Of a stretch of DNA of 46,775 nt, positions 22,709-37,831 are shown one piece after another (position 1 is the stretch's first letter; each line of letters starts with the position of its first letter). The notes below the pieces were generated by a model that was not told the origin of the DNA, did not search any database, and saw only the letters and a list, made by a program, of their open reading frames with translations. Where the stretch lies: positions 1 to 46,775 of IMG/VR virus record IMGVR_UViG_3300022072_000020; one strand, 5' to 3'. Origin of the DNA: a virus. The translations under genes were made by a program, and so were the position numbers.

Positions 22709-25700
22709 ATGGAAGAATTATGGAAAGGACTCGTTGAAAAAGGTTTATACACTAAATCTTTTAGCAAGTTCCAAGAGCAATATAATAATCAAGAGGGTGT
22801 AAAGAAATTACACACTGGTTTAGTAAACAAAAACTTATACACGAAAAGTGAGGAGGATTTTGCTAATCAGTATGGGTTTGTTTCTACACCTAACGTTATC
22901 GCAGCGTCTCAAAGCGCGAGTGAATCTAGTATGGGTTCAACTGATGAAGATGAGCTACCTGAAGATAAAGGATGGTTTGAAGACATGTTCACCGCGATAT
23001 CTGGAGGGGCTAAAGCTGGTTCGGGTGTTGGTGAAGCTTTTGACGTGTACAGGCAAGGGCGTAATATATCAGAGGAAGATTTAAAGGGTTTTGTGAAAGC
23101 GGCAAACGCTATGACAGAAAATCCAGAAACAAACGAAGCTGCTTCTTGGAGGAAAGACACAGAAAAATATGGAGGTGGTTTCTTGGGAGGTTTTATGGGT
23201 TTATTAGAAAACCCAGGTTACGCACCTCAATTTATAGCATCTTCATTTGCAACAATGGTCTCTTCTTTAGTTGACTCAGAGGAGGTTGCAGCAGCTACCG
23301 CAGTTGGAGCAGGTGGTGGAGCAGCTGTTGGAGGTGGTATTGGAGCTGCCGCAGCCTCTATAGGAGGTCCAATAGGAGCGGCTTTAGGTTATGTTGGCGG
23401 AGCTGGTGCTGGAGCTATAGGTGGAGGTATGGCAGGTTTAGTTGGTGCTATGGAAACTGGTTTGACTTTGACGGATCTATTGAGAGATGAGCTAGGGGAT
23501 AAAGACTTTAATGAGAAAAACATAAGAGCTCTACTGAATGATAAAGACGTTATGGATAGGGTTAAATCAAGATCTTTAGCTAGAGGTTTAACTATTGGAG
23601 CTGTGGAGGGTTTAACATTTGGTCTTTCTAGAGGTGTTGCAGGTACAATACTTGGTTCAGCTACAAAACGAGGGGCTGTAGGTTTATCAAAAGCAGGTTT
23701 AAAAACAGGCGCTAAAGTAGCCGCGGCAACCACAGCGGTAGAGATGGTTGGAGGTGGTGGTGGAGAAGCTTTAGGTATGCTAGCCGCTGGACAAGAATTA
23801 AAAGGAGAGGAGATATTCCTAGAGGCTATAGGTGAGGCAAAAGGTGCTGTTAATACTTCAGATATAGTTAAATCAGCTCTGACAAATACCTCGTATAAGT
23901 TGAACGGTGAAGATGTTACCACTGATAAGATAAAAGAAATAATAGATAACCCTAACACTTCTAAAGCTGATTTAGCTAAGATGAATATAGAGGTTACCGG
24001 TGATAAGGCGTTTGATAATTTCGTAAAGTCTAAGCAGAATGAAGCTGTTGTATATTCTCAGATTGACGAAAGTATCACAGACGAAAAAGATAGAAATGAG
24101 TTAGTAGAATTAGCGTTTAAAAGAGACAATGCTATAGCTAATACCAAAAAAGAAGGTGTTAATCAAGTTCCTGGGGCGCAGCAGGCTTTAGAAGATATAG
24201 AGTCTAGTATTAGCGATATCATAAATAAATATGAAGGAGCTGTAGATGTGGCTGCTACACAAGAGGCAGCCGATGTTCGTAAAGCTAGACGTGATATAAG
24301 TTTAGCAAAGACAATAAACTTTCTTGAGACAAACAAAAATTACACAGGTAAAGAAGTTGTTATAGCTGATGACGATGCCTCTGCTCAAATAGCTCACGAT
24401 AAAGCTGTTGAAGAATACAACGCTAAGCAGACTGATCCTGAGAAAATGCTAGGAGATGAAAACGTTTCTGGTGCAGACGGTTTTATAGTTGGAGATGTTA
24501 TTGTTATAAATAAAGACGTAGCTGGCAGAACAGGTCAGATAAATGTTGGTGCACATGAGTTACTACACGGAATTGTAGCTAAACACATGAAAAGTTTAAG
24601 CGTAAAAGAACAAAACAATCTTATGGGTAGTTTTGTAGATGTTTTAACTAAAGATCAAAAAAAGTATGTCGAAACAGAGTTTAACCGTAGAAAAGATACC
24701 GGTGAATCTTTAGACCCTTCAGAGTGGTTAACTATATTCTCTGATGGTATAACTAAAGGTAAGATTAAATTTGACGAAGGAGTTTTTGATAAGTTAAAAA
24801 ACATTATTCAGGAAATACTAAGAAAGATAGGTTATCCTAAAGAGTTTAAAAACGGTAGACAAGTTTACAACTTTATGAAAGACTATCAGAAAAGCGTTGC
24901 TGCTGGTGGTCAGATTAGCGCAAGAGCTATAGCTCTAGCTGGTGGAGGTGTAACAGCTGGTGAAACTTCGTTTTCTAGATCTGCTTCAGATAAAGTTCAA
25001 AGCATATACAACGAACAAGGAGAAGCAGGTGCTTTTGATATCATAAATGAATTTAAACCTATAGTAAACAGAATAGCTGAGTCTAGAAGAGGTGCGCCGA
25101 ATTTTGATAAGCAATTATTAATAGACGAAATCGAAACTGGTAAGCGCGGTATATATGATTTAATCCGTGAATATAATCCAGACTCAGGTGTACCACTAGC
25201 AGCTTGGATTAATAAATATCTTCCAGCTAGAGCTATCGAAGCTTCAAAAAGAGTTTTAGGTGAAGAGTTTACAGATGACGTAACTGAAAAAGTTGACATA
25301 GCAGCTGAAGAAGCACCTACTCCAGAAGTTAAAGCAAAGCCTAGAAAAAGAAAGATAGTTTTAGCTGAGCGATTGGGCATTAGTGAAGACGTGTCAAAAG
25401 CTATAAGTAAGTTAGTTCCTACTTTAGATTTAGAAGCGTTAACGTTTAAAAGTTTAAAAAACAAGATACCTAATATAACAGGTGAATTATTTGGTATATC
25501 ACCGAAAAAGATAATTAGTGGAGCTAATATAACAAAAAAAGAGTTACAGTCAGCTCAAATGTTTATTAGTAAAAACGTAGATTTATTAATAGCTATGCTA
25601 CCTGAAGGCGCCACAACTGGTGGTACCGCTACAGGTATGCCTAATACTTTATTAAAGGCTTTTTACACTAAAACCGATAGAGCTAAAATGGCTGGAACGG

Positions 25701-28700
25701 GTAGCAAAGCTGGTCTAGCTATTCAAGTTAAAAACCCTAACATAACTAGAGCGGATTTCTTAGAGACATTCGGTATCATAGATGGTAAACCAGATCGTAC
25801 AGATAGGAACACATCGGCTAGAGTGTTAGCGTTAGCGAACCTAACTGGTAAAATGATAACCAATCAAGCGGTTAGACAACAAGTTAGATCAGAAAACTTA
25901 AGAAGCTTAGAAGATGGTAAAAGCAGCATTATGTTTAGTAAGGCAGATGCTGATATAGCTAAACTATTTAATCAAGAAAAATCGTATTATGAGATAAACG
26001 ATCTAAATAGCGTTGAAAGATATATAGATGTAGACGTGCCGAGACTTATTAAGGTTTTTGAAAAGTACCCAGGCTTGTTAACTGGTAATGAACTTGTAAA
26101 CGGTTTAAATGCTATAAGAAATCAAAGCTTGAAACAACCTCTTAGAGACGGTGTAAAAAAATATGACGAATTAAAAGTTAGAGGTAAATACCCAAAAAGA
26201 GACTTTGCTAAATATGTTGGTAACAAAGTTGAACAGATGGATACTGCTAAAATAAATGAATTTAACAGGCAAGCGGGTATTAATTTTGATGCGCATTGGA
26301 AAGCTATAGATAAGGCGTTGTATAATGACCCTACTTTGTTAGGGCCTATACTTATATATTTAAGTAATGCTATTAATTCTAAAACGCATATTCATAGATC
26401 TGGAGCAGAGTTTATATCTTATGACAAGACTACTAAAGGTCGACTTTACTTAGAACATGCCTTGCAAAACGTTAAAGCTTACAGGACTTTGATAAAAGCT
26501 TCTATGAACGACAAAACAGCAGGTCGTTCTGAGTTTAAGAAAACTATAAAAGCTTTAAAGAATAACTATAAGCTTATTGGAGTAAGTGTTACCGATAACA
26601 CTAAATTAGACAAAGGTAGCTATGTAGATGAAAACGGCAAAACTGTATCATTTAAAAATGAAATGGGTTTAGGTTGGGATATTTTTAATAACAAGTGGCA
26701 TGAAAGATATTTTAACAAAATAATAAACGATTTAGGTGGTATAAACCCTGAGAATTTCACTGTAGTTAATTCAAATAAATCACTAGCGGAAGAGTTAAAT
26801 ATAAATTCAGAAGGTGGAATTAGGTTTAGCAAAACTGGAATCGATAATTTTAAAATATTAAATACTGCTATAGCTAACGCTAGAATTAGTAAAGCTTCTA
26901 AACCGACAAAAGGTATCACCGTTCTCGACTTTGATGACACGTTAGCCACAACTAAATCTAAAGTCCTTATAACAGCTCCTGATGGTGTTAAAAGCAAGTT
27001 AAACGCGGAAGAGTTTGCGAAACAAGGCGCTGATCTTTTAGCTGAAGGTTATAAATTTGATTTCTCAGAATTCAATAAAGTTGTTAAAGGTAAGACTGCG
27101 CCGTTGTTCAACAAAGCAATGAAGCTCTCAGGTAAGTTTGGGACAGACAACATGTTTGTTTTAACTGCTAGATCTCCTGAGTCTGCTAAAGCTATTAAGC
27201 AGTTTTTAGATGCTCAAGGGTTAGATATACCCCTTAAGAATATAACAGGTTTAGGAAAGTCGGAAGCTGAGGCTAAAGCTTTATGGATAGCTGAAAAAGT
27301 TGGAGAAGGTTACAACGACTTTTACTTTGCGGATGATGCTATTCAAAATGTTAAGGCTGTTAAGAATATGCTAGATCAATTTGACGTTAAGTCTAAAGTT
27401 CAGCAAGCCAGAGTGAAGTTCAGTCAAAGCATGGATAGTGAGTTTAACAAAATCCTTGAAGATATATTAGGTATAGAAGCTGCTAAAAGGTTTTCTAGTA
27501 TGAAAGCTCGTAAGAGAGGTGAAAGTAAAGGTAAGTTTAGATTCTTTATACCTCCATCTCATGAGGACTTCGTTGGGTTGCTTTACAACTTCATGGGCGC
27601 AGGTAAGAAAGGTGACGCGCATAGAGACTTTTTAGAGCAAGCTTTAATTAGACCTTTAAATAGAGCTAACAAAGAACTTGATACAGCTAGACAAAGTATA
27701 GCTAACGACTTTAAATCTTTAAACAAAAGATTTCCTGATGTTAAAAGTAAACTCAAAAAGAAAACACCAGAGGGTGATTTTACCAATGAAGACGCTATAA
27801 GAGTTTATCTATGGGATACAAACGGTTATGATATACCTGGTATAACTAAAACAGATCAAAAGAATTTAGTTGACTATATCAACTCTAATCCAGAGCTGAG
27901 AGCTTACGCGGATACCTTAAGCGTTATATCCAAACAAGAAGCCTACGTAAGTCCTACAGAAGGGTGGGAGTCTGGTGATATTAGAATGGATCTAAACGAC
28001 GCAACTGGTAGAGTTGGTAGAGAAGAGTATTTTGCAGAGTTTTTACAAAACACGGATATAATATTTTCTAAAGAAAACCTCAACAAGATCGAAGCTGGGT
28101 ACGGTAAAGGTGTTAGAGAAGCTTTAGAGGATATGTTGTACCGAATTAAAAATGGTAGAAACAGACCTAGTGGAAGTAACGCTTTAGTAAATAGATTTGT
28201 TAACTATATAAATGGGGCTGTTGGTAGTGTTATGTTCTTTAACATAAGATCAGCTGTTCTTCAGCAGATGTCTATAGTGAACTACATAAACTTTGCTGAC
28301 AACAACATGTTTAACGCGGCTAAGGCTTTTGCTGACCAAAAGCAATACTGGAGCGATTGGTCTTATATATTTAACTCTGACATGCTAAAGCAGAGAAGAG
28401 GTGGTATACAGACTGACGTTAACGGATCTGAGCTAGCTGAAACTATCAGTAAGTCTAAATTCCCTATGAGAACTTTAATAAGGGAGCTCTTGAAGATTGG
28501 TTTCACACCTACACAAATCGGTGATAATATAGCTATTGCAACCGGTGGCGCTACATATTATAGAAATAGAATTAAAACATATTTAAAGCAAGGTTTATCT
28601 AAGACTGAAGCTGAGGCAAAAGCTTGGACGGATTTCCAAGATATAACACAGTCTACTCAGCAGTCTGCTAGACCAGACATGGTGTCTCAACAGCAAGCTT

Positions 28701-29491
28701 CACCTCTTGGTAAGTTTATACTAGCGTTTCAAAACGTAACATCTCAGTTTAACAGGTTAGGTAAAAAAGCGTTTTTGGATATAAAAAACAGAAGAATAAC
28801 AAAGCCTAATACTTCGCAGTTCCAAAGCGATGTGTCTAACGCGTCTAGAATCATGTATTACTTTGCTATGCAAAACATGATATTCTATGGACTACAGACG
28901 GCTTTATTCGCCGCTCTGTTTGACGATAACGAAGATGATGAAAAGTTTCTTAAAAAGAAAGAGAGAATGATAAACGGTAGTATTGACTCTGTTTTAAGAG
29001 GAAGCGGAGTTATGGGAGCTGTTGTAGCTACAGTTAAAAATATGGCTATGAAGTTTGCGGAGCAAAGGGAAGCTGGTTATAATAAAGATGAAAGTGCTGT
29101 TTTAATGGAGATGTTAAACGTGTCTCCTCCTCTAGGTATTAAAGCTAGAAAAGTAGTTAACGCTGAAAAAACATTAAACTACAACAAGAAAGCTATAGAA
29201 GAAATGGAGACCCTTGATATTGACAATCCTCAATGGTCTGCAGCCACTAGTTACATTGAAGGTATTACTAATATTCCATTAAACAGACTATATAACAAAA
29301 CGCAAAACATGAGAGAAGCCTTGAACAACCAGCACTCAGCTTGGCAAAGAGCTTTAATGTTTATGGGTTGGAGTAAATATAATCTAGGAGTAAATGAAGA
29401 AGAGAAAGACTCTACTTCGTCTAAACGAAAAAGTACATCACGAGGCACCTCATCGCGAGGTGGATCATCAAGAGGTGGTAGTAAAAGATAA
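22709..29491 (+). CDS. Giant polyvalent internal virion protein (protease-, sigma- and HAD-like modules)
   Basis: This 2260-aa protein is a string of modules. Residues 4 to 60 hold two copies of a short repeat (LVEKGLYTKSF and LVNKNLYTKSE). Residues about 190 to 255 are a glycine/alanine-rich membrane-type segment. HELLHGIVAKH at 616-626 fits the HExxHxxxxxH zinc-protease pattern. Residues about 785 to 865 resemble sigma-70 region 2. DFDDT at 1407-1411, the LTAR threonine at 1486 and FADD with D1542 and D1543 fit motifs I, II and IV of HAD phosphatases. The last 600 residues are mostly helical, and the final 22 are S, R, G and K. Short F-S-K/R/Q motifs sit between modules. This is the build of large polyvalent proteins injected with phage DNA. 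The frame is intact. Confidence 0.7.
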   Translation: MEELWKGLVEKGLYTKSFSKFQEQYNNQEGVKKLHTGLVNKNLYTKSEEDFANQYGFVSTPNVIAASQSASESSMGSTDEDELPEDKGWFEDMFTAISGGAKAGSGVGEAFDVYRQGRNISEEDLKGFVKAANAMTENPETNEAASWRKDTEKYGGGFLGGFMGLLENPGYAPQFIASSFATMVSSLVDSEEVAAATAVGAGGGAAVGGGIGAAAASIGGPIGAALGYVGGAGAGAIGGGMAGLVGAMETGLTLTDLLRDELGDKDFNEKNIRALLNDKDVMDRVKSRSLARGLTIGAVEGLTFGLSRGVAGTILGSATKRGAVGLSKAGLKTGAKVAAATTAVEMVGGGGGEALGMLAAGQELKGEEIFLEAIGEAKGAVNTSDIVKSALTNTSYKLNGEDVTTDKIKEIIDNPNTSKADLAKMNIEVTGDKAFDNFVKSKQNEAVVYSQIDESITDEKDRNELVELAFKRDNAIANTKKEGVNQVPGAQQALEDIESSISDIINKYEGAVDVAATQEAADVRKARRDISLAKTINFLETNKNYTGKEVVIADDDASAQIAHDKAVEEYNAKQTDPEKMLGDENVSGADGFIVGDVIVINKDVAGRTGQINVGAHELLHGIVAKHMKSLSVKEQNNLMGSFVDVLTKDQKKYVETEFNRRKDTGESLDPSEWLTIFSDGITKGKIKFDEGVFDKLKNIIQEILRKIGYPKEFKNGRQVYNFMKDYQKSVAAGGQISARAIALAGGGVTAGETSFSRSASDKVQSIYNEQGEAGAFDIINEFKPIVNRIAESRRGAPNFDKQLLIDEIETGKRGIYDLIREYNPDSGVPLAAWINKYLPARAIEASKRVLGEEFTDDVTEKVDIAAEEAPTPEVKAKPRKRKIVLAERLGISEDVSKAISKLVPTLDLEALTFKSLKNKIPNITGELFGISPKKIISGANITKKELQSAQMFISKNVDLLIAMLPEGATTGGTATGMPNTLLKAFYTKTDRAKMAGTGSKAGLAIQVKNPNITRADFLETFGIIDGKPDRTDRNTSARVLALANLTGKMITNQAVRQQVRSENLRSLEDGKSSIMFSKADADIAKLFNQEKSYYEINDLNSVERYIDVDVPRLIKVFEKYPGLLTGNELVNGLNAIRNQSLKQPLRDGVKKYDELKVRGKYPKRDFAKYVGNKVEQMDTAKINEFNRQAGINFDAHWKAIDKALYNDPTLLGPILIYLSNAINSKTHIHRSGAEFISYDKTTKGRLYLEHALQNVKAYRTLIKASMNDKTAGRSEFKKTIKALKNNYKLIGVSVTDNTKLDKGSYVDENGKTVSFKNEMGLGWDIFNNKWHERYFNKIINDLGGINPENFTVVNSNKSLAEELNINSEGGIRFSKTGIDNFKILNTAIANARISKASKPTKGITVLDFDDTLATTKSKVLITAPDGVKSKLNAEEFAKQGADLLAEGYKFDFSEFNKVVKGKTAPLFNKAMKLSGKFGTDNMFVLTARSPESAKAIKQFLDAQGLDIPLKNITGLGKSEAEAKALWIAEKVGEGYNDFYFADDAIQNVKAVKNMLDQFDVKSKVQQARVKFSQSMDSEFNKILEDILGIEAAKRFSSMKARKRGESKGKFRFFIPPSHEDFVGLLYNFMGAGKKGDAHRDFLEQALIRPLNRANKELDTARQSIANDFKSLNKRFPDVKSKLKKKTPEGDFTNEDAIRVYLWDTNGYDIPGITKTDQKNLVDYINSNPELRAYADTLSVISKQEAYVSPTEGWESGDIRMDLNDATGRVGREEYFAEFLQNTDIIFSKENLNKIEAGYGKGVREALEDMLYRIKNGRNRPSGSNALVNRFVNYINGAVGSVMFFNIRSAVLQQMSIVNYINFADNNMFNAAKAFADQKQYWSDWSYIFNSDMLKQRRGGIQTDVNGSELAETISKSKFPMRTLIRELLKIGFTPTQIGDNIAIATGGATYYRNRIKTYLKQGLSKTEAEAKAWTDFQDITQSTQQSARPDMVSQQQASPLGKFILAFQNVTSQFNRLGKKAFLDIKNRRITKPNTSQFQSDVSNASRIMYYFAMQNMIFYGLQTALFAALFDDNEDDEKFLKKKERMINGSIDSVLRGSGVMGAVVATVKNMAMKFAEQREAGYNKDESAVLMEMLNVSPPLGIKARKVVNAEKTLNYNKKAIEEMETLDIDNPQWSAATSYIEGITNIPLNRLYNKTQNMREALNNQHSAWQRALMFMGWSKYNLGVNEEEKDSTSSKRKSTSRGTSSRGGSSRGGSKR

Positions 29492-29498
29492 ATTATAA

Positions 29499-30536
29499 AT
29501 GAAAAAAGTAATTGCATTATTAGCGTTTTTGCTGTGTATAGCAAATGTAAATGCTCAACAATTAAAAAAAGCTTTTAAGTTCGCTACGTTCTACACAGCT
29601 GTAAATGGTGGAAACTCTATATCAGATCAAACTATATACTCTGTGGCTAACGGCTTAGGTTCTACTGAAGTTGAGACACCATACGATTATAGCTTAACTA
29701 TGGGTTTGCGTAAGATTGCTAGATTTGGTTATGAAAATAGAGCTAATGTTTTTTATGACGGAACTGAAGAGTCTTGGTCAGACGGTGCTAACATAGGCAA
29801 GCGTAACGGCTTAGAGTTTTTAGCTGAGGTTAAATACAAAAGGCAGATGGGTCAAGAGTTTCTTGATCAAAACCATTTCTTAAGATATGTAGGAGATAAT
29901 TACATTGTTAAAGGAGAGTATCTACAAGATGGCTTTGCAGACATCTCCTATTTTGAAGCGTCAGAAAGATATAGATTAAAATTAGGGAAAAAGTTTTCTT
30001 TTAATATAGGTGTAGCTCAAAGATTATCTGAACCATATGGTTTTAATCCTTTAGAAGAGTGGTTACTAGACAACAACAATATACACTACACATATCTAGC
30101 CTTGCAAGAAGGATACACTGTTGATGTGTCTAACGAAGAGTATTTTAGTCCTAATGGCGAATCAGTAGCGTTAAGCTCAGAGGTTTGGGAAGCGGTGGTA
30201 ATACCAAATGTTATATCAGATTATGTAGGTAGAAAGAGAGACGAATTGAACAACCTACTTCAGCTGTCCGTAGTGGCTGGATTTGATTTTTACCATTATA
30301 CGGATGAGTTTTGGTTGCACGCGTGGGGTAACGTTATGCCGTACCATTATGATAACGGAAACGAATTCATGTACCACAACTCAGTTGGTGGTCAATGGCT
30401 TGATTATTCTGGTGGTCTTATATTAGGTTATAGGATAAACAAACACCTAGGATTATTCACTGAAGGCAAGTATAACAAGTACTGGAACAGGGAGTGGTAC
30501 AACTTTAAGTGTGGTATAAACTATGTAATCTTCTAA
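29499..30536 (+). CDS. Exported outer-membrane-barrel-like protein
   Basis: Residues 1 to 20 are a clear Sec signal peptide (two lysines, a hydrophobic core, and an NAQ cleavage site typical of Bacteroidetes). The mature 325 residues alternate polar and aromatic residues in strand-like stretches, have many Y, F, W and N, and end in YVIF. A terminal aromatic residue on a final amphipathic strand is the mark recognised by the BAM machinery, so an outer-membrane beta barrel is likely. It begins seven bases after the giant virion gene. I recall relatives in uncultured marine phages but no known function. Options are a barrel that blocks the receptor or otherwise excludes a second phage, or help in release. 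A virion role is less likely given the signal peptide. Confidence 0.62.
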   Translation: MKKVIALLAFLLCIANVNAQQLKKAFKFATFYTAVNGGNSISDQTIYSVANGLGSTEVETPYDYSLTMGLRKIARFGYENRANVFYDGTEESWSDGANIGKRNGLEFLAEVKYKRQMGQEFLDQNHFLRYVGDNYIVKGEYLQDGFADISYFEASERYRLKLGKKFSFNIGVAQRLSEPYGFNPLEEWLLDNNNIHYTYLALQEGYTVDVSNEEYFSPNGESVALSSEVWEAVVIPNVISDYVGRKRDELNNLLQLSVVAGFDFYHYTDEFWLHAWGNVMPYHYDNGNEFMYHNSVGGQWLDYSGGLILGYRINKHLGLFTEGKYNKYWNREWYNFKCGINYVIF

Positions 30537-30539
30537 GAT

Positions 30540-30902
30540 ATGGCTTATAAGCAAAAAAATAATCCTTTTCCAGTAACATCTTGTGGTAGGCGTAGAGCTG
30601 GCGGTATAGGCAGCGCTTTTAAAAAAGCTGATCCGCGCAAGACTATAGGTCCGGGTAAAAACTTTAACAAAGCTAACCCAACTGGAACAGGTGGTGCAGC
30701 AGGAGGTGGCATGACTCAAAAAGGTGTTAATGAATACAAAAGAAATAACCCAGGCAGTAAGTTAAAAACAGCTGTAACTACACCTCCTTCAGAACTTAAG
30801 AAGGGTAGTAAAGCGGCTGGTCGCAGAAAATCATTTTGCGCAAGATCAAAAAGTTGGAAAGGTAAAAGAGGTTTAGCCGCTAGACGTAGGTGGAACTGTT
30901 AA
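30540..30902 (+). CDS. Small very basic protein, DUF6321-like
   Basis: The 120-aa product is highly basic (K, R and G rich). Its C-terminal half has the pattern MTQKGVNEYKRNNPGSKLK, then SKAAGRRKSFCARS and a terminal RRRWNC. I associate this arrangement with a widespread phage domain of unknown function, DUF6321, but could not check it. The conserved cysteines (in SFCAR and at the last residue) could bind metal or form a disulfide. The charge suggests nucleic-acid binding or packing inside the capsid. It starts three bases after the barrel gene and belongs to the same late transcript. The glycine-rich middle is probably flexible. Function unknown. Confidence 0.6.
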   Translation: MAYKQKNNPFPVTSCGRRRAGGIGSAFKKADPRKTIGPGKNFNKANPTGTGGAAGGGMTQKGVNEYKRNNPGSKLKTAVTTPPSELKKGSKAAGRRKSFCARSKSWKGKRGLAARRRWNC

Positions 30903-30912
30903 ATAAATAGCT

Positions 30913-31173
30913 ATGGCATTCAAAATGAAATATAAAAACCTCAAAGAGGTTGTGAAACAGCTTAATTCAGCTGTCGTTGCTCACGGTAAGCAAGCTAAAA
31001 CAATAAACAAACACATCGATGAGATGGAAGGTGGTCCTATGAAAAAGCGTGGGCTTTGGGATAACATACATGCTAAAAGAAAAAGAATTAAAGCTGGCTC
31101 AGGAGAAAAAATGAGAAAACCAGGCAGCAAAGGAGCTCCTTCAAAAAAAGATTTACAAGACTCTCAAACATAA
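30913..31173 (+). CDS. Small basic phage protein with GLWDNIHAKRKR motif
   Basis: The 86-aa protein has a helical N-terminal half (KYKNLKEVVKQLNSAVVAHG) and a basic tail with KRGLWDNIHAKRKRIKAGSG, then EKMRKPGSKGAP. I recall the tail motif (GLWDNI, then K/R-rich, then MRKPG) as very common at the ends of small proteins in marine phages. Its function is unknown to me. The charge again suggests contact with DNA or RNA. It follows the DUF6321-like gene by ten bases. The leader is A/T-rich (AAATAAATAGCT) without a Shine-Dalgarno sequence. Confidence 0.55.
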   Translation: MAFKMKYKNLKEVVKQLNSAVVAHGKQAKTINKHIDEMEGGPMKKRGLWDNIHAKRKRIKAGSGEKMRKPGSKGAPSKKDLQDSQT

Positions 31174-31182
31174 TAAAAAAAA

Positions 31183-31467
31183 ATGGCTAAAGAATTAAAC
31201 GAGGACACGGGGTTTCAGATAAGTGTAAAAACACTCATCGGTATAGGTTTTGGAATGGCCACTATTATTAGTATGTGGTTTATGTTACAGGCTGATATAG
31301 CTGAGGCAAAAGAACTACCAGAGCCACTACCTCCTGAGATATCACGCATGGAGTTTGATATGAAAGATCAACTTGTGCGTCAGACTATTATGAGCACTCA
31401 GGAAGACGTTAAGGAGATAAAAGAGGATCTGGATAATATAGAAAGAAAGATAGATGATTTAAAATAA
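31183..31467 (+). CDS. Single-pass membrane protein with C-terminal coiled coil (holin- or spanin-like?)
   Basis: Of the 94 residues, about 17 to 36 form one hydrophobic transmembrane helix (LIGIGFGMATIISMWFMLQA). It is followed by a proline-rich bend (ELPEPLPPEI) and a strongly charged heptad-type coiled coil to the C terminus (EDVKEIKEDLDNIERKIDDL). It lacks a signal-peptidase site. One membrane anchor with a long coiled coil close to the endolysin gene would fit an inner-membrane spanin or a class III-type holin, but similar proteins of unknown function occur in many phages. It lies in the envelope-directed segment, 12 bp before the exported thioredoxin-like gene. Confidence 0.5.
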   Translation: MAKELNEDTGFQISVKTLIGIGFGMATIISMWFMLQADIAEAKELPEPLPPEISRMEFDMKDQLVRQTIMSTQEDVKEIKEDLDNIERKIDDLK

Positions 31468-31478
31468 AATATAATATA

Positions 31479-31847
31479 ATGGAGAATTCAATGAATTTTA
31501 AAACAGTAGTAGTTTATGCTTTAATTATGCTAGGGGCATTATTGAGCGGGACTGCTTTTGGACAAAACCTATGTGGCAGCGATATTTGCGTTGTACAGTT
31601 TAACGCCAGTTGGAATACCAGCAACAACGTTGACTATCTTGGAGAATTAACCGACTGCGAGGTTATGAATGTGAGTATAGATCAAGGTACATACCAATCT
31701 GATTACGGAATAGTAGTTGTACCTACTATTATAGTCTTCAATGGGAAAGAGGTGGAGAGGTTTCAAGCTAACATTATGATGCAGCTGGAAGCTACTAGAA
31801 AGCAAGTTCAGTCGGTTATTGATGAAGTAATTTATAGCGATTTTTAA
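31479..31847 (+). CDS. Exported thioredoxin-like protein without catalytic CXXC
   Basis: After a signal peptide (hydrophobic core, ending AFGQ) the protein has the thioredoxin strand VVQFNASWNTSN and the strand and cis-proline VVVPTIIVFNGKEV, with spacing as in a thioredoxin fold. The tryptophan of the WCxxC site is present (W45), but both catalytic positions are asparagine (N46 and N49), so it should not catalyse disulfide exchange by the usual route. A separate cysteine pair (C32 and C37) lies just before the first strand. An internal ATG at 31491 has a GGAG six bases upstream and begins the signal peptide more typically (MNFK), so it may be the true start. I recall relatives in marine phages. 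The next gene encodes a cysteine-rich exported protein, a possible client. Confidence 0.62.
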   Translation: MENSMNFKTVVVYALIMLGALLSGTAFGQNLCGSDICVVQFNASWNTSNNVDYLGELTDCEVMNVSIDQGTYQSDYGIVVVPTIIVFNGKEVERFQANIMMQLEATRKQVQSVIDEVIYSDF

Positions 31848-31848
31848 C

Positions 31849-34002
31849 ATGAAGAATAAAGCTTATTTATTAGTAGTAGCTTTTTGGCTCATTATTGGGT
31901 CTGTACTAGGTCAAGATAGTTGGGTTAAAGTATCCGTACAGACAGATGATTACGGAGGAGAAACATCTTGGGAGATATATCAAGCATCAGAGGTTGTTGC
32001 GGTTAGCCCTCCTTATGTTAGTAACTCTTTACAAGAAGTTGTAGTACCTCTTGACCCAGGAGATTATAACTTTGTTATATACGACTCTTTTGGAGATGGT
32101 ATTTGCTGCGACTTTGGGCCTGGGTGGTACTCTTTAACCAACTCTTGTGGGTTAGAGATATACGATTACGAGTTTGCTGGTCCTTCGACTACAACGGTTT
32201 TTGAAGTTTCGGATTGCGAGGCGCCTGTAGCTGGATGTATGGATATAGGTGCTTTAAACTTCAACCCGTGGGCTAACGATCAAGCGCCATGTGTATTTCC
32301 ACCTATGCCTTGTGGACCTGACCAAACAAACATTATAGCTTTAATTACACCTGATAGCTATCCATCTGAAACAAGCTGGGATATAACCGCTAATGGTGAG
32401 ATTATAGCTTTTGGAGGAAACGAGGGTAATACGGGGGTAACATTACCCTCGTACGTGTGTACAGGTGTAGGAGACACCCTTGTTGCAAGCGTGTATGACA
32501 CATACGGGGATGGGTTATGCGGAACTTGTTGGGGTGGGGTAGACGGGTACTTCAACGTCACAACTTTATGCGGTGATAGTATTTTTGCCATAGGTGGAGT
32601 TGAGCAGTTTGACACCGCGTCTTCGGGGCCTTACATAGTCCCACCTTGTATACCAGTGATACCCCAAGGTTGCACAGACTCAAATTACCTAGAGTATAAT
32701 TCAGAGGCTATAATAGATGACAATAGCTGCTTAACCGAGGTTGTTTTAGGGTGTACGCAAGAGGAAGCGTTGAATTATGATCCTGTCGCTAATACTATAG
32801 AGACTGAACCGTCATGTGATTACTCATTAGTGATTACAGACGGTGGAGCAGATGGTTGGTTTGGTAGTTGGTTAGGCCTAAAACAAGGTGATAACTTGTA
32901 TGGACCATATCAAATGGGTCCTAATGATGGACATGAAGAGGAGTTTAACTTAACCTTAAACTCCAATGAAGATGTAAGTGTTTATTTTTTCACAAGTGGT
33001 AACGCTGAAACAACAGCTGCTCAGTGTGGGTTTAGAATTGAAGGTCCTAGTGGAATAGTGCTCGAGAGTGGAACTAACCCTTGGACTGATCCATTAAAAA
33101 AGTTTCCTTATATATATACCGGTACACCTGTTTGTTCTGACTATTGCATACTACCTGTCGTAGGTTGTATGGATAATTTAGCTTGTAATTATAATAATGA
33201 AGCTAACATAGACGAAGGTTGTTTTTATTCCGTTCAATACTATGATTGTGACAACGCTTGTGATAATGACGTGGATAATGATGGTGTTTGTGATGAACTC
33301 GAAGTGGTTGGATGTATGGATCCAACAGCATTTAATTATAATATTCTAGCAACTGATGTAGGTGATTGCGAACCGTTTATATTTGGTTGTACAGACCCAA
33401 CACAATATAACTATGATCCAGAAGCTAACACAGAAAATGGTGGCTGTATTCCTTACGTTTACGGTTGTACTGATAGTAATGCCTTTAATTATGATCCGCT
33501 GGCTAACTCTGACAACGGTTCTTGCATTGAAATCTTGGAGGGTTGTGCAGACCCCGAAGCTTATAACTATGACACAGCGGTTAATATACCTGATCCGGAA
33601 GTCTGTCTCTACGAAGCGGTAGGATGTGTCACTGGACTAGGTGAGCCATATGGCGATGGTTATTGGCTCAACAACATGTGCTTCGCGTGGGTTATACAAG
33701 TTGACCCATATTGCTGCGAAGAGGATTGGGACGCTGTATGTCAAGAGACATTTGATTATTGTTCAACAACTAGTATAGAAGTTGCATTAACTGAACACGA
33801 CTTAGTGGTATACCCTAACCCAGTTAAAAATATATTAAGCATAAACAAAAACGTCGACATAGACGTATTTAATTCATCTGGAGGTATGATAATATCTCTT
33901 AAAAATGTTAACACGTTAGACGCGTCTCTATGGGTTTCAGGGGTATATATAATGCATATAACACACAACAACTTTAGGGTAACTAGAAGGGTTGTTAAAT
34001 AA
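31849..34002 (+). CDS. Secreted cysteine-rich repeat protein with T9SS C-terminal sorting domain
   Basis: The 717-aa protein has a signal peptide (MKNKAYLLVVAFWLIIGSVL, then GQ). Two related beta domains follow, at about residues 24 to 120 and 160 to 250, each with a YDSFGDGICC-type or YDTYGDGLCG-type turn. Then come about eight Cys repeats of the form GCTDPxAxNYDPxANxDNGSC (for example GCTDSNAFNYDPLANSDNGS, then C) and a DVDNDGVCDELE calcium-type loop. Residues 653 to 717 have the features of a type A T9SS sorting domain: VYPNPVKN, a strand DVFNSSGGMI, LWVSGVYIMHI, and a basic end VTRRVVK. Such domains direct Bacteroidetes proteins through the outer membrane to the cell surface. All elements are known from flavobacterial surface proteins; finding them in a phage late gene is unusual. 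Its role is unknown. Confidence 0.78.
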   Translation: MKNKAYLLVVAFWLIIGSVLGQDSWVKVSVQTDDYGGETSWEIYQASEVVAVSPPYVSNSLQEVVVPLDPGDYNFVIYDSFGDGICCDFGPGWYSLTNSCGLEIYDYEFAGPSTTTVFEVSDCEAPVAGCMDIGALNFNPWANDQAPCVFPPMPCGPDQTNIIALITPDSYPSETSWDITANGEIIAFGGNEGNTGVTLPSYVCTGVGDTLVASVYDTYGDGLCGTCWGGVDGYFNVTTLCGDSIFAIGGVEQFDTASSGPYIVPPCIPVIPQGCTDSNYLEYNSEAIIDDNSCLTEVVLGCTQEEALNYDPVANTIETEPSCDYSLVITDGGADGWFGSWLGLKQGDNLYGPYQMGPNDGHEEEFNLTLNSNEDVSVYFFTSGNAETTAAQCGFRIEGPSGIVLESGTNPWTDPLKKFPYIYTGTPVCSDYCILPVVGCMDNLACNYNNEANIDEGCFYSVQYYDCDNACDNDVDNDGVCDELEVVGCMDPTAFNYNILATDVGDCEPFIFGCTDPTQYNYDPEANTENGGCIPYVYGCTDSNAFNYDPLANSDNGSCIEILEGCADPEAYNYDTAVNIPDPEVCLYEAVGCVTGLGEPYGDGYWLNNMCFAWVIQVDPYCCEEDWDAVCQETFDYCSTTSIEVALTEHDLVVYPNPVKNILSINKNVDIDVFNSSGGMIISLKNVNTLDASLWVSGVYIMHITHNNFRVTRRVVK

Positions 34003-34008
34003 TAAATC

Positions 34009-34479
34009 ATGGATAAAATAAGTGATCATATAAGTTATACAGAAGCCACTCGTAGCAATACGGCTTTACGTAGAGGTATAGATAATATACCAGATGTAGA
34101 CGAGTTAGAAAATATGAAGCTTATAGCTGAAAAAGTGTTTGAACCGCTAAGAAAATGGGTTGGAGGTCCGGTTAAAATAAATAGTTTCTATAGATCGCCA
34201 GAGTTAAACATGGCGATTGGAGGTAGTAAAAAATCCCAACATTGCCACGGTCAAGCTATAGATATAGATGACACTTTTGGAGGTAAGTTTACAAACTTAA
34301 ACGCAGAAATGTTTAAGTATATAAGATATCACCTTAATTACGATCAAATAATATGGGAGTTTGGTGATGACGATAATCCAGCTTGGATTCACATTAGCTA
34401 CGTTAACGAAGATGATAACAGGCAAAGATGCTTAAAAGCATATAAAGAAAAAGGTAAAACAAAATATAAAGTAATATAA
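34009..34479 (+). CDS. Endolysin, M15-family peptidase (D-Ala-D-Ala carboxypeptidase type)
   Basis: The 156-aa enzyme has the M15 zinc site: SQHCHGQAID (S76 to D85, with H78 and D85 as ligands) and the later WIHIS with H128 as the third ligand. The upstream segment VKINSFYRSPELNMAIGG is the usual strand and arginine leading to the site. M15 peptidases cut peptide cross-links or D-Ala ends in peptidoglycan, and single-domain versions serve as phage endolysins. It has no signal peptide, so release would need a holin or another membrane-damaging partner, perhaps the membrane protein at 31183-31467. It starts six bases after the T9SS-sorted gene and ends one base before the first of three tandem paralogues. 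Length and motifs are normal for the family. Confidence 0.85.
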   Translation: MDKISDHISYTEATRSNTALRRGIDNIPDVDELENMKLIAEKVFEPLRKWVGGPVKINSFYRSPELNMAIGGSKKSQHCHGQAIDIDDTFGGKFTNLNAEMFKYIRYHLNYDQIIWEFGDDDNPAWIHISYVNEDDNRQRCLKAYKEKGKTKYKVI

Positions 34480-34480
34480 C

Positions 34481-34900
34481 ATGGCAACAACAACAGCTAC
34501 AATTACGCTATCAAGTACTGACTTGTTGTCAGACGAGTTAGCTTTAACAACCACATCCACATTAACAAAAACCGGTACTGCAACAGGTGTAGAACACACG
34601 TCTGGCTTAGCAAGTAAAACAATTACATCAACCGCTAAGGGAACAGCTTCGGGGCAAGTTACTTTGTACACAGCGGATGATTTCGCGGCTATTCCGTATC
34701 TATATGTTAAAAACTCAGCTACTACAGCTGGGCATAAAATATTTATATATGACGATAGCACAAGCGGTGATCCTCTTCAGTTTCAGCTAGACGCAGGTGA
34801 TTGGGGTTTCATACCTATGCATGGAGATAAAACATATAAAGCTTACGCTACAAACAATCCTACTAAAATGGAGTTTATGGTAATAGGTCAAGATCAATAA
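34481..34900 (+). CDS. Small virion-type protein, paralogue 1 of 3
   Basis: The 139-aa product begins MATTTATITLSSTDLLSDEL and has a YLYVKN strand and a DAGDWGFIP segment. The same landmarks (MATT start, K/Y-V/I-Y-V/I-K/R-N strand, GGDW or AGDW followed by a proline) appear in the next two genes, so the three are divergent tandem duplicates. Composition is T, S, A and K rich and almost all beta. No enzyme motif or signal peptide is present. Proteins of this type are common in marine phage structural regions, and a decoration or fibre-associated role is likely but not shown. The start is the second base after the endolysin stop. Confidence 0.55.
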   Translation: MATTTATITLSSTDLLSDELALTTTSTLTKTGTATGVEHTSGLASKTITSTAKGTASGQVTLYTADDFAAIPYLYVKNSATTAGHKIFIYDDSTSGDPLQFQLDAGDWGFIPMHGDKTYKAYATNNPTKMEFMVIGQDQ

Positions 34901-34925
34901 ACAATAAACAACTAAATAAATAATT

Positions 34926-35339
34926 ATGGCAACAACAACAGCAGCGGTAACGCTAACAAGTGATTTGCTATCAGATGCAATGTCAGTAACTGCAAGTACA
35001 ACTTGTATGAAAGCGGGTACTACAGCTGATGGTTTGGATCAAGTAGAATATGCAGTAGTAGAGATAGCTACTGGAGATGAATATGATTTAATTTGCACTA
35101 CTCCAACAGCAAGTAAAGCAAGTAAACTTTACGTAAAAAATCATTCAATAGATGAAACTTACTACGTAGCGGTCACACAAAACGCGCAAGCTATAGGTAG
35201 GTTATACGGTGGAGACTGGATGTTTATTCCAGCTGATTTTCATGACGCGGCTGCAGATATAGCAGTAACATCAAATGGTGGAACAAATAAAATAGAATAT
35301 GCTCTTTTTCACGAAGGAACAGCTTTAACTACTACTTAA
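34926..35339 (+). CDS. Small virion-type protein, paralogue 2 of 3
   Basis: The 137-aa protein begins MATTTAAVTLTSDLLSDAMS, which is close to paralogue 1. It has KLYVKN in the middle and IGRLYGGDWMFIP near the C terminus, the latter shared closely with paralogue 3. The sequence just upstream and across the start (AAATAATTATGGCAACAACA) is nearly identical to that before paralogue 3, so leader and start were duplicated along with the gene. The beta-rich, low-charge composition fits a surface or fibre-bound virion protein. No function can be assigned from motifs. Confidence 0.55.
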   Translation: MATTTAAVTLTSDLLSDAMSVTASTTCMKAGTTADGLDQVEYAVVEIATGDEYDLICTTPTASKASKLYVKNHSIDETYYVAVTQNAQAIGRLYGGDWMFIPADFHDAAADIAVTSNGGTNKIEYALFHEGTALTTT

Positions 35340-35362
35340 TAACGATTTAAAAAGAAATAATT

Positions 35363-35788
35363 ATGGCAACAACATGCACAATAAATATATCTTCCGATGC
35401 AGCCCCAGGTTTTGGCGGCGTTAGCGAATCAATGACATTGACTCAAGCTGGCACAATTATAGATATAGATAGCACAACGGGTTTTCAAAGGAGAAAACTA
35501 TCAGCTACAGGAGCTGTAGATTTAATTACTATGGCTAGCGAAAACATAGAACCTAAAGACAGTGTAGCTTCAAAAGTGTACATTAGAAATATAGGAGATG
35601 GTAAAGGTAATATCGACAAAACCGTAGGTGTTACGATAGGGGTTAACGCTGAGCCTATTGGTAAACTCTACGGAGGCGATTGGATGATGATGCCTTTAAC
35701 ATGCATCGACGCTGATGATGTCACAGCAAATCCAGCTACAGATGATACTGTGGTTTTAGAGTTTGTGATGTTCTACGAAGAAGCTTAA
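35363..35788 (+). CDS. Small virion-type protein, paralogue 3 of 3
   Basis: The 141-aa protein begins MATTCTINISSD and contains KVYIRN and IGKLYGGDWMMMP, the two blocks shared with paralogue 2. The middle differs more (an insertion around NIGDGKGNIDKTVGVTIGVN) and the C terminus is acidic (FYEEA). It lies 23 bp after paralogue 2 and 7 bp before the next small gene. As with the other copies, there is no signal peptide and no catalytic motif. Three diverged copies in a row suggest subunits of a hetero-oligomer or stepwise adaptation of a surface-exposed protein. Confidence 0.55.
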   Translation: MATTCTINISSDAAPGFGGVSESMTLTQAGTIIDIDSTTGFQRRKLSATGAVDLITMASENIEPKDSVASKVYIRNIGDGKGNIDKTVGVTIGVNAEPIGKLYGGDWMMMPLTCIDADDVTANPATDDTVVLEFVMFYEEA

Positions 35789-37802: not shown

Positions 37803-37831
37803 AAGGGGATAGCCACAACGGTTATCCCCTT
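37803..37831. terminator. Bidirectional hairpin terminator between converging units
   Basis: The arms 37803-37814 (AAGGGGATAGCC) and 37820-37831 (GGTTATCCCCTT) form a 12-bp stem with one wobble around a five-base ACAAC loop. A-rich sequence lies on the left side and T-rich on the right, so each strand sees a U-run after the stem. It sits in the 74-bp gap between the last rightward gene and the last leftward gene, and it should end transcription from both sides. Confidence 0.88.

Follow-up and report, generated by a model that had tools for sequence, protein, structure and literature searches.

The window, by which we mean the whole stretch of viral DNA that was analysed (46,775 nucleotides, IMG/VR record IMGVR_UViG_3300022072_000020), contains a cassette of + strand genes at positions 29499-34002, flanked by the last giant virion gene and by the gene for an M15 endolysin. 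The features of the locus are as follows.

22709-29491, + strand: gene for a giant internal virion protein (2260 aa), so called from its position and length; it lies directly 5' of the barrel gene and is given for context only
29499-30536, + strand: gene for an outer-membrane beta-barrel protein (345 aa), component 1 of the module, with a signal peptide that ends in NVNA before QQ
30540-30902, + strand: gene for a small basic protein with DUF6321 (PF19846, E 5.2e-11), outside the conserved core
30913-31173, + strand: gene for a small Lys-rich basic protein (phrog_16028, E 3.1e-20), outside the conserved core
31183-31467, + strand: gene for a single-pass coiled-coil membrane protein (94 aa), here called TMcc, component 2
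31479-31847, + strand: gene for an exported thioredoxin-fold protein (122 aa), component 3
31849-34002, + strand: gene for a type A cargo of the type IX secretion system (T9SS; 717 aa), component 4 (PF18962, E 1.4e-9; TIGR04183, E 8.6e-10)
34009-34479, + strand: gene for an M15-type endolysin without a signal peptide, a neighbour and not part of the core (Peptidase_M15_3, E 4e-14; phrog_894 endolysin, E 1.2e-26)
37803-37831, + strand: terminator-like hairpin of 12 pairs that closes the run of + strand genes

The initial annotation had placed four envelope-directed products between the last virion gene and the endolysin, and all four are found there, on the + strand. It had overlooked the two small basic genes that lie among them, neither of whose products carries an export signal. 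Gaps between genes in the run are 1-11 bases. A promoter scan was uninformative (64 sigma-70-like patterns as against 47.6 expected), and a Flavobacteriia-type pattern gave four matches, all on the minus strand. The 2260-aa gene is the last of a run that starts at the portal gene, and the position of the four genes at the end of this run would be in keeping with virion components that make contact with the host envelope at entry. We judge this very improbable, because three of the four proteins have signal peptides and one of these a T9SS sorting domain, and because the portal or sheath gene is 18-74 kb away from the module in other records.

As judged by a custom regular expression rather than by SignalP, signal peptides of Bacteroidetes type, in which Gln follows the cleavage site, are present in 81 of 81 barrels, 60 of 68 thioredoxin-like proteins and 60 of 69 cargo proteins from the window and a first set of loci, and in none of 66 TMcc proteins; the three signal peptides that had been read from the window alone are thus borne out.

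The barrel has no match in Pfam, PHROG or NCBIfam. Its AF2 model (pLDDT 74, pTM 0.67) is mostly beta, and the nearest folds, found with VIA, are the 12-strand barrels KdgM (Z 14.4), NanC (Z 14.1) and Tsx (Z 13.5). A profile of the family (A1) matched none of the PDB sequences at E 1, and so the likeness to 12-strand porins and to outer-membrane phospholipase (OMPLA) is one of fold and not of sequence homology. We rejected OMPLA itself (Z 12.4), as the H-x-S motif of the phospholipase was not seen among the invariant columns. Relatives of the barrel number 401 in the viral contigs of one collection; a search of 50,697 records of cultured phages found none, either at E 1e-3 or at E 10, and the barrel was found in none of the 295 other Flavobacteriales genomes searched. 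The resemblance to the KdgM, NanC and Tsx channels would suit a porin that feeds phage DNA synthesis by nutrient uptake, as would the position of the module in three loci (L043, L047 and L064) after a gene that resembles the ribonucleotide-reductase-like gene of the window. Likeness to these folds would be expected of many barrels, however, and a porin would leave TMcc, the thioredoxin-fold protein and the cargo unexplained; we regard this reading as quite improbable.

TMcc has one transmembrane helix at about residues 17-36 (by hydropathy, with the peak at residue 17), followed by a Pro-rich linker and a C-terminal coiled coil, whose heptad (V76/I79/L83/I86/I90/L93) was picked out by eye in an alignment (A2) of 54 sequences. 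This is the architecture of an i-spanin: one N-terminal transmembrane helix and a coiled-coil domain. From the distribution of charge, the coiled coil may lie in the periplasm (N-in, C-out). At least 589 relatives occur in one viral collection, and cultured-phage records gave no match at E 1. TMcc is the only small transmembrane protein inside the incomplete window. All five longer records have, besides TMcc, a holin-type gene with three transmembrane segments (from its likeness to a family matching holin phrog_3427), and TMcc therefore need not be a holin, an assignment that we consider weakened.

The profile of the third family (A3) matches thioredoxins (best, 2vim, E 2.5e-9), which indicates a thioredoxin fold, and the cis-Pro loop is kept. 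The description of this protein as thioredoxin-like thus holds for its fold and not for its active site, where WNxxN stands in place of CxxC. Among 193 relatives the position reads N..N in 176, S..Q in four and N..K in one, with the pattern unmatched in 12; C..C occurs in none, both catalytic cysteines being lost. Matches in cultured phages were limited to Streptomyces phage thioredoxins at E about 0.8-0.9.

The cargo is a Cys-rich, multi-domain protein with a Sec signal peptide and a C-terminal sorting domain (about residues 651-717), the two marks of a T9SS type A substrate. The model of the sorting domain matches the corresponding domains of Flavobacterium johnsoniae substrates (8glk, Z 8.5; 8glj, 8.3; 8gl6, 8.2), with a Foldseek TMt of 0.74 to 8glk. 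For its export, a type A cargo would rely on PorV of the host (PMC12618676). Among 131 full-length relatives, as sorted by regular expression, 119 have the signal, and the tails are YPNP-type in 81, of a shorter variant in 27 and of other kinds in 23; the Pfam sorting-domain model found no match in the five scanned proteins without a YPNP tail. Outside the sorting domain the model gave weak matches only, among them one domain to Ca-dependent carbohydrate-binding modules (vCBM60, Z 7.7), which may mean only a common arrangement. Cultured phages yielded only short repeat matches, in five records. A Cys-rich repeat protein whose sorting domain is like those of flavobacterial surface proteins might be a phage adhesin or armour, fixed to the cell by way of the barrel; the infected cell would thereby stay attached, aggregated or intact while virions are still being assembled. 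We think such upkeep of the envelope improbable, given the placement of the module near endolysins, and no phage system of this sort is known.

The four genes keep company far beyond the window. Of the TMcc loci, 94 distinct ones have 5 kb or more of flanking sequence on each side; among these, the thioredoxin-like gene is present in 93, the barrel in 91 and the cargo family in 90, whereas the next commonest family, that of the DUF6321 protein, is found in 41 and the Lys-rich (phrog_16028) cluster in 28. Thus, the grouping is not due to chance. The presence of the cargo family in so many of these loci also weakens the idea that the cargo gene is a chance neighbour derived from the host. Homologues scattered at unrelated places had been named as an outcome that would speak against a joint role; starting from three of the four genes, we found near-obligate co-occurrence each time. 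These results support the conclusion that the four genes form a real, conserved and ordered module aimed at the envelope, much as their clustering had suggested, and it appears to be a fixed means by which phages exploit the type IX secretion system of the host. The module is found in many uncultured marine phages of flavobacteria, among them contractile-tailed phages and phages with a P22-type portal. The cultured relatives that we checked (phi38:1, elemoF and Panino) lack the module, yet their hosts are lysed. Mirror-tree correlations between the module genes were 0.16-0.41 (0 of 199 permutations each), and the M15 gene correlated with the module genes too (0.25-0.56), shared descent being still included in these values; for the 2260-aa gene the comparison covered no more than 20 loci. 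We found no description of such a four-gene module in the literature searched.

The module also lies close to lysis genes. In 24 of 24 records with a lysin above the cut-off (M15 in 21, amidase in three), TMcc and the endolysin are close together on the same strand, though these records share ancestry and are not independent; 26 of the 50 records have neither M15 nor amidase above the cut-off. The mean distance between module and endolysin is 4.8 kb as against 25.7 kb expected (0 of 20,000 simulations in a whole-record test, which omits an M15 match in G009 that falls short of the family cut-off and belongs to a 996-aa frame some 70 kb away from TMcc). In contrast, the portal and sheath genes used as a control are not near (42 kb as against 37.5 kb expected, from 14 record-gene pairs, omitting a portal match in G021, which is outside the record set scanned). 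One record, G025, is a MAG. Permutation of gene order inside the loci was not significant for M15 (1892 of 2000) or for all lysins (509 of 2000), and closer placement than chance was confined to the amidase, c31 and two-TM families. The endolysins near the module are not homologous across carriers: the contractile-tailed L085, L097 and L101 have as their lysin an unrelated PG-binding amidase, and both it and a two-TM protein adjoin the module. In podophage-type records the holin-type gene is far from the module.

Nearness to lysis genes also fits the main rival reading, in which the barrel and the cargo, towards the end of infection, cover or jam surface receptors; new virions would then not be trapped on the dying cell or its debris, and sister phages would be kept out. 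The precedent is Llp of phage T5, which acts on FhuA (PMC9586334), and the cargo, surface-sorted and with its weak vCBM60-like domain, would suit such a role. We nonetheless consider masking of this kind somewhat unlikely and favour it less than a role in egress, because the barrel is 57-64% identical to that of the window in sheath-bearing phages, which differ in their tails, whereas a receptor-specific excluder should follow the receptor. Inner-membrane and periplasmic partners, moreover, would be unneeded.

Our own, tentative reading, possible though short of likely, is that the module is mobile among marine flavobacterial phages and serves as a late trans-envelope egress device with a spanin-like role, in which a barrel takes the place of the o-spanin lipoprotein. 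Each layer of the envelope would receive one protein: TMcc the inner membrane, with its coiled coil in the periplasm; the redox-dead thioredoxin-fold protein the periplasm; the barrel the outer membrane; and the Cys-rich cargo the cell surface, which it would reach through the host's type IX secretion system. The module would be made late and act at lysis. Once the endolysin had cut the wall, TMcc and the barrel might link both membranes, and the outer one would be broken; the thioredoxin-fold protein could join the two, binding peptide instead of carrying out redox chemistry, and the surface cargo might loosen or coat the cell exterior.

Several findings on spanins and lipoproteins favour this egress reading. 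According to Kongari et al. (2018; PMC6139136), 91 of 677 phages, Bacteroides and Croceibacter phages included, have no recognisable spanin, and an outer-membrane protein could serve as o-spanin. In the window we found no lipoprotein candidate (o-spanin or u-spanin) on a plausible gene. A clear lipobox is present in 40 of 145 barrels; the window's barrel has none and so is not an o-spanin in the sense of an outer-membrane lipoprotein. Four of five longer records have no lipobox call at all, or none apart from that on the barrel of the module itself, and in the fifth (G328) the one extra call reads as a plain signal peptide ending in NAQ. Against the reading, a lipoprotein adjoins the module in L064, the cultured relatives named above lyse their hosts although they lack the module, gene-order permutation showed no significant nearness to lysins as a whole, 26 of 50 records have no lysin above the cut-off, and the holin-type gene of podophage-type records is remote. 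How Bacteroidota phages pass the outer membrane is still unsettled, and a module that is common, strictly linked, phage-specific and common to differently tailed phages is a concrete candidate for the answer. More doubtful is the wider proposal that the module represents a new class of egress machine, a barrel-based, four-layer analogue of spanins that hijacks the T9SS, attacks the outer membrane from inside and outside at once, and passes as a whole from one tailed phage of marine Bacteroidota to another, unrelated one; it would explain how some of these phages, in which no spanin can be recognised, open that membrane.

Several known systems share features with the module. The module's third protein shares with the thioredoxin family its fold, as judged by profile, and the cis-Pro loop; it differs in that both catalytic cysteines are replaced (by Asn in 176 of 193) and in being exported and phage-encoded. 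PorP/SprF and PorV shuttle barrels also have genes beside T9SS cargo genes, but the module's barrel matches no family model (Pfam or NCBIfam at E 1) and these shuttles were not among the folds listed, so that a PorP/SprF-type shuttle is unsupported by these comparisons. Type A cargos of Flavobacteriia (NucA, FspA and RemA) resemble the module's cargo in their signal peptide with Gln and in the fold of the sorting domain, whereas that cargo is phage-encoded, belongs to a fixed four-gene module and in 27 of 131 cases has the shorter variant tail. T5 Llp is likewise made by the phage for the envelope and could affect the outer membrane while infection is under way, but its architecture differs, Llp being a single periplasmic lipoprotein (PMC9586334). 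There are also the two-component spanins (lambda Rz/Rz1 type), in which, as in the module, an inner-membrane protein with one N-terminal transmembrane helix and a coiled coil is encoded beside an outer-membrane protein, near the endolysin. The outer-membrane partner in the module, however, is a barrel and not a small lipoprotein, and the module has two extra components. Neither a thioredoxin-fold protein nor a T9SS cargo is known from any spanin.

The module lies in a run of plus-strand genes in the window, a virus record of 46,775 bases, where the gaps between genes measure 1–11 bases from the 2260-aa gene through the M15 endolysin. The features are:

22709–29491, +, 2260-aa gene, last of the virion gene run
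29499–30536, +, outer-membrane-barrel-like protein (barrel)
30540–30902, +, small basic gene
30913–31173, +, small basic gene
31183–31467, +, single-pass coiled-coil membrane protein (TMcc)
31479–31847, +, thioredoxin-fold gene
31849–34002, +, type IX secretion system (T9SS) cargo
34009–34479, +, M15 endolysin
37803–37831, +, terminator-like hairpin of 12 pairs, closing the gene run

HELLH (zinc-protease-like) and LDFDDT (HAD-like) motifs were spotted by eye in the 2260-aa virion protein, in which no Pfam domain scored over the cut-off. Three tandem, paralogue-like genes of about 140 aa each (one cluster, 165 members) occupy 34481–35788. The two small basic proteins at 30540–31173 are of DUF6321 and phrog_16028 types; proteins of these types sit in or around the module in 41 and 28 of 94 TMcc loci, respectively, frequently inserted among its genes. 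The window probably lacks part of the genome, since the portal is already encoded by gene 2 and the terminase is not represented by any complete gene. Cultured relatives of the portal (87 records, all below 60% identity) came from phages of Flavobacterium (68), Cellulophaga (15), Tenacibaculum (2) and Maribacter (1), plus one further record, and by portal sequence the host is therefore very likely a flavobacterium.

The initial annotation had read these genes as an envelope-directed cassette, a reading that scattered homologues would count against, and a comparison of neighborhoods found the genes kept together. Seed searches yielded 401 relatives of the barrel, at least 589 of TMcc and at least 525 of the thioredoxin-like protein (80 kept in each case), and the comparison was limited to loci with at least 6 kb on each side. 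TMcc and the thioredoxin-like gene were both present in 34 of 34 barrel-seeded loci, and barrel and TMcc in 31 of 31 thioredoxin-seeded loci; TMcc-seeded loci contained the thioredoxin-like gene in 39 of 39 cases and the barrel in 38. By a strict sorting-domain model, cargo was found in 18/34 barrel-seeded, 28/39 TMcc-seeded and 24/31 thioredoxin-seeded loci. Deduplication left 199 TMcc loci, 94 of them with at least 5 kb on each side. Among these 94, the thioredoxin-like gene was found in 93, the barrel in 91 and the cargo family in 90 (a count from single-linkage clustering that may take in a few repeat-bearing tail proteins), whereas the next family reached 41; clustering recovered the seed gene TMcc in 90 of them, a gauge of ORF-picking loss. 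The block occurred in the orders barrel–TMcc–thioredoxin–cargo, cargo–barrel–TMcc–thioredoxin and TMcc–thioredoxin–cargo–barrel.

An AlphaFold2 model of the barrel (70 relatives; pLDDT 74, pTM 0.67) had strands over most of the chain, and outer-membrane barrels topped both its Foldseek and VIA-align lists (best VIA Z: KdgM 14.4, NanC 14.1, Tsx 13.5, NalP 13.3, OMPLA 12.4). The family is strongly conserved (mean column identity 68%, more than 100 invariant positions) and had zero matches to Pfam, PHROG and NCBIfam models at E 1; the viral protein A0A516LKJ4 (24% identity, E 6e-22) is a likely relative by sequence. The 145 N-termini counted, which leave out 33 more relatives without anchor or start, comprised 40 that combine a clear lipobox with PKxCC, 83 with no lipobox, 19 ambiguous and 3 near-lipobox. 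The family has two export forms, those other than the 40 of 145 bearing mainly plain signal peptides with Gln; optional lipidation within one barrel family is odd, and lipidated barrel-type proteins are known in the phylum Bacteroidota (TamL; PMC12045153). TMcc combines a single hydrophobic helix with an invariant region near LQADI..A..LP and ME..MKD, after which comes a heptad repeat. The profile of the thioredoxin-fold protein matched a thioredoxin at E 2.5e-9, with N..N at the WCxxC site in 176 of 193 sequences (S..Q in 4, N..K in 1, pattern unmatched in 12); the most plausible reading of this cysteine-less fold is an adapter for binding peptides.

The cargo sorting domain was recognized by Pfam, by NCBIfam and by fold, its model resembling T9SS-bound substrates of F. 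johnsoniae (8glk; Z 8.5, rmsd 2.3, 67 aligned); sorting of type A cargo is by PorV (PMC12618676). A signal peptide with Gln (for the Q rule, see PMC5837995) was present in 119 of 131 full-length module cargos, at least 4 of which resemble tail proteins. Their tails were YPNP-type in 81, a shorter LGR...YxDG in 27 and neither by pattern in 23, most of the last resembling sorting tails by eye. The shorter tail is a putative sorting signal, as the Pfam sorting-domain model had no match in five proteins without YPNP. The middle domain showed a weak likeness to Ca-dependent carbohydrate-binding modules (Z 7.7).

Among 24 carrier records, a contractile sheath was found in 5, a P22-type portal in 10 others (E 0.001, with 6 of the 10 above the cut-off) and both in none; in sheath-bearing records the barrel was 57–64% and TMcc 65–76% identical to that of the window. 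Six cellular genome contigs matched the barrel, all of them MAGs or bins (one labeled Nitrosopelagicus, two Maricaulis). As the matches were confined to MAGs and bins with mixed taxon labels, these are probably virus contigs mis-binned with cellular genomes. The labels on these barrel contigs (L241–L246) include MAGs of Maricaulis, Nitrosopelagicus and Sphingobacteriales. One of 296 Flavobacteriales genomes had a match, the same MAG as in the genome-contig search. Barrel and TMcc had no protein match across 50,697 cultured-phage records, and the gene set was absent from the full annotation of the cultured relatives phi38:1, elemoF and Panino. These module-less relatives each encode a protein of about 200 aa (phi38:1 gp084, L276:4385–4984, after the endolysin; elemoF gp32, L274:10592–11137; Panino CDS0090, L273:901–1503). 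It begins with a TM helix, continues through a long periplasm-like region and finishes in strands that by eye resemble the end of an outer-membrane barrel. At E 0.01 none of the module-carrying loci matched this protein, nor did any informative family; a single chain of this kind could reach from the inner to the outer membrane and end there in a barrel-type part.

We also asked how near the module lies to endolysin-type genes (lysins). A whole-record test covered 50 records: TMcc could be located in every one, M15 exceeded its cut-off in 21 and amidase in 3. The lysin was on the TMcc strand in all 24 records, at a median of 4.9 kb and a maximum of 13 kb; the mean distance was 4.8 kb, against 25.7 kb under uniform placement (0 of 20000 simulations), but the 24 records count for fewer because of common descent. 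As a control, TMcc to portal or sheath (14 record–gene pairs) gave 42 kb, against 37.5 kb expected. Within the 94 loci M15 lay within 5 kb of TMcc in 19, and a gene-order test within loci gave no signal for M15 or for all lysins pooled. The three amidase records all bear a sheath and have the order two-TM gene, cargo, barrel, TMcc, thioredoxin, with the amidase adjoining this block on either side depending on the record; another endolysin-like family, c31 (phrog_33083, E 1.3e-17), is near the module in other loci. Of the 28 loci that have both the module and a two-TM protein of 75–100 aa (cluster c13; L085, L097, L101, L123), holin-like by topology alone, 23 place the two at most one gene apart, and in record G328 a protein of this type adjoins a 3-TM holin-type gene. 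Five longer records each had one holin-type gene, separate from TMcc, and their lipoprotein calls were only the barrel (four records) and one plain signal peptide. The window has no plausible lipoprotein gene, the sole match being antisense inside TMcc.

With one protein per envelope layer, an endolysin nearby and no visible spanin, the module's simplest single function is, we tentatively propose, to form a bridge to the outer membrane and rupture it during lysis. The module would link the membranes and breach the outer one, with the thioredoxin-fold protein as an adapter that binds peptide and the cargo, exported by the host T9SS, acting at the cell exterior. The chief rival is masking of receptors, as by T5 Llp (PMC9586334), which would account for most of the same facts as well and which we consider less likely. 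Searches of open-licence papers gave no description of the module as such, and passages of PMC7198788, PMC13288928, PMC8776804 and PMC5332604 gave none either. Two other flavophages have likely u-spanins according to Bartlau et al. (PMC8776804), so the module would not be needed by all phages of these hosts. According to Kongari et al. (PMC6139136), an outer-membrane protein could serve as o-spanin. We group the module with phage outer-membrane breach as the best explanation and not as an established member, for the window departs from o-spanins in the lipoprotein criterion.
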